A DNA stretch of 34,305 nt from Syntrophaceae bacterium (GTDB lineage Bacteria > Desulfobacterota > BSN033 > UBA1163), in assembly GCA_013388635.1 (NCBI GenBank), contig JACAEX010000083.1, positions 1 through 34,305 on the forward strand, written 5' to 3'. The notes beneath the pieces were generated by a model, which was given only the letters and a program-made list of their open reading frames with translations, was not told the origin of the DNA and did no database searches. Both the position numbers and the translations under genes were made by a program. Shown here piece after piece: positions 31,948 to 34,305 of this stretch; positions within the stretch are counted from its first letter, which is position 1; each line of letters starts with the position of its first letter.

Positions 31948-32409
31948 ATGGCTGAAAAACTGATCTGCCAGAACCGGAAGGCCTGGCATAACTATTTTAT
32001 CGATGACAAGTACGAAGCCGGGATCTCCCTGCTGGGAACAGAGGTGAAGTCCCTCCGGGAGGGGAGGGCTAACCTCAGCGATAGCTATGGGAAGATCAAG
32101 AACGGGGAGGTCTTTCTCATCGATGCCCATATCAGCCCTTACAGCCATGGCAATCGATTGAATCACGATCCGCTCAGGCCGAGAAAGCTCCTCCTCCACA
32201 AAAGGGAGATCCGGCGCCTCATCGGAAAAGTCCAGGAGAAGGGATTTACGCTCATCCCCCTCCGCCTCTACTTTTCTGATGGAAAGGCCAAGGTGGAGTT
32301 GGGTTTGGCAAAGGGAAAGAAGCTCTTTGATAAGCGAGAGACGCTTAAACGAAAGACGATGGAAAGGGATATGGAAAGGGGGCGAAAAGGGTTCGACGGG
32401 GATCGTTGA
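31948..32409 (+). CDS. smpB: SsrA-binding protein SmpB
   Basis: 153 residues. SmpB binds tmRNA and brings it to stalled ribosomes. Marks are [47 protein letters not shown] and [11 protein letters not shown], with a basic C-terminal tail that enters the empty mRNA channel. The ribosome binding site is weak (TAAGAG). The last eleven codons ([10 protein letters not shown] end) are also the 5' end of ssrA, an overlap of 32 bases. Confidence 0.97.
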
Positions 32410-32733
32410 CGTCAGGGCTGCATGCCGAGGTCCCATTGGCTCGTTAAACAAATGGGGTTTAAACATAATCGCAGCCAACTACGATTATGCCCTGGCTGCC
32501 TAAGCGCGGCCAGCGTCCCTTCCGTTCTCTCCTGTAGGGCGGAATGTGGATGTCAGAAAAACAGGATAGTTCCTCTCCGACGCTTATAGGAGGGGAGCGA
32601 ATCTTTATAAGCTAGTTCTTCCAGAATCCTGTCTGTGGGAGGTTGGGAGGACGAATTCAAAACACAGACTATGTATGTAGATGCTCTGGCCGAAGGTTCT
32701 CGGACGCGGGTTCGATTCCCGCCGCCTCCACCA
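32378..32733 (+). ncRNA. ssrA: Transfer-messenger RNA (tmRNA)
   Basis: 356 bases. The acceptor pairs GGGGGCG (5') with CGCCTCC (3') and keeps the G3-U wobble used by alanyl-tRNA synthetase; the 3' CCA is encoded. GGGTTCGACGGGG and GCATGCCGAGG near the 5' end and GGTTCGATTCCCGCC in the T-arm are diagnostic. The resume codon is GCA at 32471 after ATAATC, and the tag reads AANYDYALAA, ending at TAA 32501-32503. The region after the tag should hold the pseudoknots. The 5' end lies inside smpB. Confidence 0.96.
32700..32733 (+). other. Possible integrase attachment site (ssrA 3' end)
   Basis: The T-arm/acceptor end of ssrA is a classic target of tyrosine recombinases. Directly after it the composition becomes AT-rich and a tyrosine recombinase gene lies ~1.2 kb away. 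The second attachment copy would be beyond the window, so this is inference. Confidence 0.4.
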
Positions 32734-32742
32734 ATTATTAGA

Positions 32743-32772
32743 GCAAAAGCCCCAATAATCATGGGGCTTTGC
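32743..32772 (+). terminator. Intrinsic terminator after ssrA
   Basis: AAAGCCCC (32746-32753) pairs with GGGGCTTT (32763-32770) around a nine-base loop, with an outer GC/GC pair after a bulge. The following GCCATTTTGT is only moderately T-rich. Confidence 0.65.
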
Positions 32773-32795: not shown

Positions 32796-32831
32796 ACTAT
32801 CCAGATACTATCCACAAAGGAATTCACAAAG
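32796..32831. repeat. Short tandem direct repeats next to ssrA
   Basis: ACTATCCA occurs at 32796 and 32807, and CACAAAG at 32813 and 32825, that is, two pairs with ~11-12 base spacing. Such helical-phase repeats near an attachment site resemble integrase arm-type sites, but no experiment-like evidence is visible. The gap 32773-32925 has no other feature I can support. Confidence 0.35.
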
Positions 32832-32925
32832 TATTTTACAGCGGTCTTTTTTTTTGCACTGACTTTAGCTTTAACCTAATCGGGGGGCATAAATCTTAAA
32901 CTTTCATTGTCGAGGAGGTTACCAG

Positions 32926-33894
32926 ATGTCTTCAGCCCGAATATTTGGCGGAAGATGGGAAGTAGTTACGCCTTTAGATGAGGGTGGGCAGTCTTATGTA
33001 TATAAAGTTAGAGATCGTAATGGAGAGTTTACCGAGGAACTCATCCTAAAGAGGCTTAAAAACCTTAAACGATTGGATCGATTCGAGCGCGAAATAAAGT
33101 CTTGCCAACAACTGTCACACTCAGGAATAGCACCAATACTTGCCTACTCATTTGACGATCCCCCATTCTTTGTCACTAAGTTTTACGAAGGTGGACCATT
33201 AACAACTCATGCTCCATTTCCTCCGATCCAGGCCCTCGACCTTTTCATTCAACTCTGTAATATAGTCTCCTATGCACACAAAAAAGGCGTAATTCACAGA
33301 GACCTAAAACCTGATAATATCGTCCTTAATCGGGATAGATCTCCTGTAATCATTGACTTTGGGTTATGTTATCTACAAGAGGAAGATCAAAGGATCACGG
33401 CTACAATGGAACAGGTTGGTTCTCGATTCTACATTGCCCCAGAGCTTGAACAGGGACATTTAGAGAAAGTGACATATAGAGTTGATTCTTATGCCTTGGG
33501 GAAGATACTCTATTTCCTTCTCGCAGGAAGAAATATTGCCAGAGAGGCCTTTCGCGGAGATAATGATCTCACAAAAGTATGCAACAATGAGCAGCTCAAT
33601 TATGTTTCAGACCGTATCTTAGCTTATGCTGTCGTAGAGAATCCAGATGATCGGAAATCGGTTGCCGAATTGGGGAGAGAAGCGAGAGACGTGAGACGAT
33701 TGATTATTGAACATTATTATCCAGGCACAGAGGGATCATTATGTCGTTTTTGTGGTGAGGGGCATTATGGAAAGTTTACTAAGTCAACGATCAGACTTAG
33801 AGAGCCAGGAATAGAGCATTCTGTGGACTTTTATGTTCTCGTTTGTGACAAGTGCAGAAACGTTGAATGGTTTCGTTTCCCAGAGGGTCGTTAG
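32926..33894 (+). CDS. Ser/Thr protein kinase with C-terminal zinc-ribbon-like module
   Basis: 322 residues. A complete Hanks-type kinase domain: Gly-rich loop LDEGGQSYVYKV, ATP Lys K42 (LILKRLK), catalytic loop H124-R125-D126 (HRDLKPDNIVL), DFG 144-146 and APE-like IAPELE. All catalytic residues are present. After the kinase (~residue 260) come CxxC at 273/276 and CxxC at 307/310, spaced like a zinc ribbon. There is no membrane segment, so it is cytoplasmic. The ATG follows GAGGAGGTTACCAG. Codon use and composition are clearly AT-richer than the rest of the window, and it lies between ssrA and an integrase, so it is probably island cargo. A phage-defence or stress role is possible but not shown. 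Confidence 0.9.
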   Translation: MSSARIFGGRWEVVTPLDEGGQSYVYKVRDRNGEFTEELILKRLKNLKRLDRFEREIKSCQQLSHSGIAPILAYSFDDPPFFVTKFYEGGPLTTHAPFPPIQALDLFIQLCNIVSYAHKKGVIHRDLKPDNIVLNRDRSPVIIDFGLCYLQEEDQRITATMEQVGSRFYIAPELEQGHLEKVTYRVDSYALGKILYFLLAGRNIAREAFRGDNDLTKVCNNEQLNYVSDRILAYAVVENPDDRKSVAELGREARDVRRLIIEHYYPGTEGSLCRFCGEGHYGKFTKSTIRLREPGIEHSVDFYVLVCDKCRNVEWFRFPEGR

Positions 33895-33912: not shown

Positions 33913-34305
33913 TCATTTCTTTCTCAACACTTCTTTAAGCCCTTCAGTATTCATTTTTGCGTATCGCTTCGTCATAGCTGATCTGGTATGACCCAGGAAC
34001 TCTTGAACCCGATCCATTCCTACTCTGTTCACCGCCTCAGTCGCCGAGGAATGACGAGTTCCTTGGTAGAAAGAAATTTTTATACCCATCTCTGAAGTAA
34101 TCCTGTTCCAAAGTTTCCTCGCATATGATTCTGAGTATGGTCGCCCGTTTCTTTGAAACACAAAAGGGCATTGTATCGACTCTCCATTTGGGCCTCTCAT
34201 AATAAATGGAGGGATTTTTTGTATAGCCTCTTTTACTTCATTGTCAAGAGGGAGGATTTTGATCCTTTTGGATTTCGTTGTTTCTCTTAATTCATTAAGA
34301 GAAAA
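33913..34305 (-). CDS. Tyrosine recombinase/integrase, C-terminal part (continues past the window edge)
   Basis: About 130 C-terminal residues are present; the frame stays open to the window edge. TKSKRIKILPLD is the beta-hairpin with the catalytic Lys, YQGTRHSSAT is box II (the usual first His appears to be Gln, the Arg is kept), LGHTRSAMTKRYAKM has the His and the nucleophilic Tyr. The first catalytic Arg would be outside the window. It points toward ssrA and is AT-rich like the kinase gene. An internal ATG at 34200 is not the start, since conserved catalytic sequence lies upstream of it. Confidence 0.9.
   Translation of the reverse strand, partial: FSLNELRETTKSKRIKILPLDNEVKEAIQKIPPFIMRGPNGESIQCPFVFQRNGRPYSESYARKLWNRITSEMGIKISFYQGTRHSSATEAVNRVGMDRVQEFLGHTRSAMTKRYAKMNTEGLKEVLRKK

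Follow-up and report, generated by a model that had tools for sequence, protein, structure and literature searches.

A soluble Ser/Thr kinase with a predicted C-terminal zinc ribbon at the edge of an ssrA island in a Syntrophaceae bacterium

The stretch of DNA analysed here (34,305 nucleotides, hereafter the window) is the entire contig C41 of a 3.42-Mb genome of 106 contigs. Near its end, a gene at positions 32926-33894 of the forward strand encodes a soluble Ser/Thr kinase of 322 amino acids. We propose, with about even confidence, that this protein is a cytosolic Hanks-type kinase with a zinc ribbon, carried as cargo on an island, at its attL edge, and that it halts growth upon encounter with a phage or a rival element. 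Taken more broadly, a role as defence or inter-element cargo is the most likely one for this kinase.

Results

Kinase gene and catalytic domain

The open reading frame of the kinase is real; it starts with an ATG, and a ribosome-binding site, GAGGAGGT, can be read upstream of it (32912-32919, forward strand). The kinase domain covers about residues 5-252 and matches the Pfam family Pkinase (PF00069) over residues 13-209, scoring 101 bits (cut-off 31.7). The domain comprises K42 in LKR, E54/E56 in RFERE, HRDLKPDN at 124-131, DFG at 144-146, APE at 171-173 and DSYALG at 187-192, and it aligns, with matching catalytic motifs, to bacterial kinases of solved structure, 4eqm and StkP among them. According to its Pfam fold match and its catalytic motifs, the protein is a Hanks-type Ser/Thr kinase, and it is expected to be active. 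An earlier note, made from the sequence alone, had attributed every catalytic residue to it. The lysine, the glutamate, HRD, DFG and APE are indeed present, but D18 (R in the homologue described below) stands where the ATP loop would have its first glycine, GG at 20-21 being kept, so that this claim was slightly overstated.

Among solved structures, the closest to the kinase domain are the kinases of the PknB/StkP type. Whereas these exhibit a membrane segment and PASTA repeats, the window kinase has neither, and the predicted zinc ribbon takes their place. The highest Kyte-Doolittle mean over 19 residues is 1.16, which indicates that there is no membrane segment and agrees with the earlier description of a soluble kinase lacking a membrane anchor and sensor repeats. 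The activation loop is of the TxT type, presumably equivalent to that of PknB, and its residues T158 and T160 are common to the kinase and its homologue.

Predicted C-terminal zinc ribbon

The C-terminal region, residues 262-322 (33709-33891, forward strand), contains the cysteines C273, C276, C307 and C310 in a CxxC-x30-CxxC arrangement, as the earlier note had seen. We read this tail as a zinc ribbon, which would bind zinc. All four cysteines are invariant in the homologue, two members being compared. As a rarity control, we took the 28 other kinase loci from the genomes of relatives; 3 were truncated and left out, and none of the remaining 25 ORFs, whose C-terminus is visible, has a CxxC pair within its last 90 residues.

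The ribbon modelled alone with AlphaFold2 from a two-sequence input shows three strands with a mean pLDDT of 77.5 and blocks at 79-90 across model residues 11-60; the model of the whole kinase, from a two-row alignment, was unusable (mean pLDDT 41.6). Structural comparison of the ribbon model gave weak matches, the best being an RNA polymerase I subunit and NrdR (Z 3.6), followed by chains of RPB9, TFIIS, ZPR1 and MqsA (Z 2.6-3.3), all of which we take to be zinc-ribbon or zinc-binding proteins. A chain of the RAZR:GP77 complex, which may be either of the two molecules, also matched (Z 3.1) and serves as a lead only; a literature search on this complex gave no paper. Foldseek with the ribbon model returned nothing at E<=0.001 in the PDB or BFVD. 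In sequence searches, the ribbon has no Pfam match above the cut-off, and TerY_C (PF15616) in particular is not matched by the C-terminus. The ribbon alone found no plasmid match below E 0.6 and no phage match below E 2, no PHROG, and just two chance chains among the PDB sequences (E about 5).

Distribution and surroundings of the homologue

Among 99 genomes of relatives, the window's own included, one further full-length homologue was found (G068:C4), with 56% identity over residues 4-318. Its contig is JAFGNJ010000029.1, from the metagenome-assembled genome Deltaproteobacteria bacterium isolate Zod_Metabat.542 (G068), and the alignment with the window kinase indicates that all the catalytic motifs are kept. 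The earlier note had proposed a profile search for the same fusion. A profile of the C-terminal half matched 2 of the 395 genomes of the phylum, namely the window's own and G068, and one of the ten genomes of the class of G068. When public genome contigs were searched, the kinase protein gave no homologue and the two-row profile gave one match, on the same G068 contig. No homologue was found in viral contigs, and of the 564 plasmid and 32 phage records, those listed are kinase-domain matches under 60% identity. As just two members are known, gene-neighbour statistics are impossible.

In G068, a gene for a DUF559-like nuclease (PF04480, 27.8 bits) adjoins the kinase gene, 128 bp upstream. Farther upstream are a PIN protein and a Fic/Doc-like gene, the latter recognised by sequence reading, and a tRNA-Val lies downstream, of which no second copy was found beside the homologue. 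The G068 kinase exhibits a GC3 of 0.385 versus 0.80-0.86 for yebC, ruvC and ruvB, and its contig contains no integrase resembling those used as queries. We also observed an AT-rich orphan of 370 residues (L032:10170-11282, GC3 0.32), situated upstream of both the DUF559-like gene and the kinase homologue, with no match in Pfam, NCBIfam or PADLOC.

An island integrated in ssrA

Upstream of the kinase gene lies ssrA, which encodes tmRNA (32378-32733, forward strand, by ARAGORN) and is the integration site of the island. The stop codon of smpB lies within ssrA, giving an overlap of 32 nt (32378-32409), and a similar overlap is present in relatives. A single further near copy of the ssrA 3' end exists in the genome. 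It lies on contig C89 and shares an identical stretch of 25 bp, TTCGATTCCCGCCGCCTCCACCAAT, which forms the att core on the attL side (32711-32735, forward strand) and on the attR side (C89:2481-2505). A terminator-like hairpin follows on the island side of the core (32746-32770, forward strand; 1 found versus 1.6 expected from shuffles). If it is the terminator of ssrA, the island may supply this terminator.

Beside each core there is a paired repeat with a period of 11 bp, ACTATCCANATACTATCCA; in C41 it follows the end of ssrA at a distance of 62 nt, and in C89 (C89:2403-2421) it precedes the core by 59 nt. The copy in the window (32796-32814, forward strand) is a putative arm-type site of the integrase, which can be written as a 19-mer with one free base, ACTATCCAGATACTATCCA. 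At up to 2 mismatches, this 19-mer occurs in exactly two places in the genome, and its reversed control in none, a pattern consistent with arm-type sites of the integrase at the two ends of a single element. If this is right, the recognisable geometry of such sites could help to find other islands.

A tyrosine integrase, of which the C-terminal 130 residues are present, is encoded on the reverse strand (33913-34305; PF00589, 40.1 bits against a cut-off of 27.1); it is fragmentary because the contig ends there. The kinase and integrase genes are convergent and separated by 18 bp, counted to the integrase stop codon. The earlier note had suggested looking at the genes beyond the window edge; these are found on C89, where the other end of the island comprises an XRE fragment, two ORFs without a Pfam match over the cut-off, and a PemK/MazF-like protein (PF02452, 28.6 bits, cut-off 23.1). 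A Y1 (IS200-like) transposase, split into two overlapping frames (L046:2592-3556, on C89), lies just outside the attR copy.

The kinase gene has a GC content of 42% and a GC3 of 0.36, and a GC3 of 0.34-0.38 is common to the kinase, the integrase (0.38) and three ORFs of the C89 end. The GC3 of the host is 0.65-0.73 for four genes of the window and 0.51-0.62 for three genes beyond attR. The middle of the island is absent from the assembly, the final 100 bases of C41 have no match other than themselves, giving no assembly overlap with C89, and the sequence beyond attR has no similarity to the ssrA-downstream regions of over 100 bases from eight relatives. With both island ends found and a low GC3 shared by their genes, the view of the kinase as mobile cargo, which the earlier note had based on composition and position, is strongly supported: from the sequence, the kinase would be cargo of an island integrated in ssrA, C41 and C89 being joined by inference.

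Regions downstream of ssrA in relatives

We recovered smpB in 15 of the 17 genomes of the family and examined ten ssrA-downstream stretches, eight of which extend more than 100 bases beyond ssrA. In our scans, five of these eight exhibit neither a period repeat nor a recombinase match. Paired repeats of other sequence with the same 11-bp period were observed 61-63 nt after ssrA in two genomes, G006 (L086:9013-9033) and G007 (L090:6050-6068), and may represent arm sites of integrases that are related but differ in specificity. Three of nine sequences, the window included, have a period-11 run of at least 8; for each sequence, 0.05-0.5% of its shuffles contain such a run. In G009, a serine recombinase (PF00239, PF07508) lies beside ssrA and a PD-(D/E)XK protein (PF22558) farther along.

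In G006, the region downstream of ssrA holds a BREX locus comprising BrxF, BrxC, PglX, BrxH, PglZ and a Schlafen AlbA_2 protein. A metalloprotease-like gene, recognised by sequence reading, lies within about 1.2 kb of ssrA in G001 and about 28 kb from it in G006; this shift indicates an insertion in G006 that includes a defence system. In the three pieces of G006 searched, neither a further copy of the core (up to 3 mismatches allowed) nor a second arm pair was found, so the BREX locus is best described as adjacent to ssrA, with integration in ssrA not established there. If the proposed reading is right, the ssrA gene of this little-studied family would be a site where defence cargo occurs. 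The G006 locus also encodes a soluble Ser/Thr kinase of 286 residues, between PglX and BrxH (L097:3571-4428, reverse strand, G006:C62), whose kinase domain is 27% identical to that of the window kinase. The cited part of a 2026 BREX survey (PMC12839542) attributes Ser/Thr kinase modules to type 2 PglW.

Discussion

Relation to known kinases

With regard to domain layout, the closest parallel is the TerY-P triad, composed of a VWA protein, a PP2C phosphatase and a kinase with a C-terminal zinc ribbon, which is linked to restriction and defence loci (PMC11090510). According to the sections of that paper used here, some triads accompany CoCoNuT restriction systems, nucleic acid is the proposed ligand of the ribbon, a metal-sensing switch is hypothesised, and a related kinase that has an OB fold where the ribbon would be is stated to act in a stand-alone defence module. 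The window kinase shares the order of a Ser/Thr kinase domain followed by a predicted C-terminal zinc ribbon, and this architecture is therefore already known. The suggestion in the earlier note of an undescribed fusion holds, in this respect, at most for the stand-alone form. No VWA or PP2C gene is present from ssrA to the contig end or among the neighbours of the homologue that were read, the 370- and 198-residue neighbours having been scanned as well. We compared the window kinase with one candidate TerY-P kinase, encoded beside a VWA-TerY_C gene in G233. The candidate differs from the window kinase in its divergent motifs, SDLS and DID in place of HRDLKPDN and DFG, and in a further region after its cysteine cluster; the best BLASTP E value between the two, 3.9, is not significant. 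Given the lack of VWA and PP2C neighbours and of BLAST similarity to this candidate, the stand-alone kinase looks, from its sequence, like a separate rare variant of the kinase/zinc-ribbon layout. A literature search combining zinc ribbon with bacterial kinase terms gave no paper, and a broader one brought up the TerY-P kinases.

Several PADLOC models match the kinase domain, the best being PD-T4-6, a single-gene defence kinase (138 bits, kinase domain only). The best-scoring PADLOC matches end near residues 202-218, and no PADLOC model matches the C-terminal 128 residues alone. As the BREX-embedded kinase of G006 scores up to 159 bits, the PD-T4-6 models are broad and do not discriminate. Both PD-T4-6 and the window kinase consist of a single kinase gene, but a PD-T4-6 of S. 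thermophilus, as described in part of its report, exhibits repeated beta modules where the window kinase exhibits the predicted ribbon (PMC11514479). By description alone, Stk2 of staphylococci is also similar, being a eukaryote-like Ser/Thr kinase present in few strains; it is activated by a phage protein and kills the infected cell, thereby aborting the infection (PMC6532042, in part).

Proposed function and alternatives

In the proposed mechanism, a tyrosine integrase would have placed the island in the 3' end of ssrA, with the kinase gene at the attL edge. The ribbon may dock on a phage or host protein or on nucleic acid, serving as a trigger or as a substrate guide. The kinase would then autophosphorylate the T158/T160 loop and phosphorylate host proteins, so that growth would stop and the phage or rival element would fail, as reported for staphylococcal Stk2. 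The position of the gene and its company, namely the MazF-like gene at the far end, the BREX locus of G006, the serine recombinase and PD-(D/E)XK protein of G009 and the nuclease and toxin neighbours of the homologue, suggest such a defence role, and the reading also draws on the rarity of the kinase, on the Stk2 precedent and on the defence-carrying elements held by the tmRNA locus of E. coli (PMC10121019, in part). A narrower and more doubtful version of the proposal is that of a stand-alone single-gene immune kinase, separate from both TerY-P and PD-T4-6, in which the ribbon would itself be the sensor, turning on the kinase in response to nucleic acid or to a product of the phage, with ssrA islands exchanging defence cargo across this family. 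If true, this would be a one-protein defence kinase with a built-in sensing part, simpler than the TerY-P triads for learning what zinc ribbons on immune kinases recognise. A housekeeping kinase was considered and rejected on account of the composition, the position at the att site and the absence from the other genomes of the family.

The TerY-P layout, for which a metal-sensing switch is hypothesised (PMC11090510, in part), would be in line with a kinase that regulates growth or the stress response, or with a signalling switch that senses metal or redox state; either would be fitness cargo, as proposed for the TerY-P triads, with a benefit unrelated to phage. This is unlikely in our view, as no VWA or PP2C gene adjoins the kinase or its homologue and BLAST similarity to the candidate from G233 is lacking. 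Decidedly unlikely is a role in regulating the island itself, in which the kinase would phosphorylate the integrase, an XRE regulator or a host factor and control excision, maintenance or transfer, with no part in defence. The location between attL and the integrase, so close to the integrase stop codon, and the XRE fragment at the other island end are compatible with this role, but the convergent orientation allows no shared operon, the ssrA elements of relatives differ in content, and the contig of the homologue carries no integrase similar to the queries.

Toxin-type genes occur both at the far end of the island and around the homologue, and could instead point to a toxin-like kinase, of the addiction or toxin-antitoxin type, with its antitoxin elsewhere on the island; as no small partner gene adjoins the kinase in either genome, we consider this improbable. 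Rarity within the phylum would be in line with a neutral passenger or a decaying gene with no present function. Nevertheless, the frame is intact, the ribosome-binding site is good, and the catalytic motifs and four cysteines are kept across 56% identity between genomes of different families, which makes a passenger highly improbable.

As for the island that carries the kinase, the vcr islands of Dehalococcoides are similar in their integration at the 3' end of ssrA, in the direct repeat left and in their low GC content; they differ in using a serine recombinase, whereas the window island has a tyrosine integrase fragment (PMC3146451, in the part cited). The large serine recombinase beside ssrA in G009 (L083:7833-9401), the 3' end of which overlaps the end of ssrA, recalls DsiB of the Dehalococcoides ssrA islands as described there (PMC3146451).
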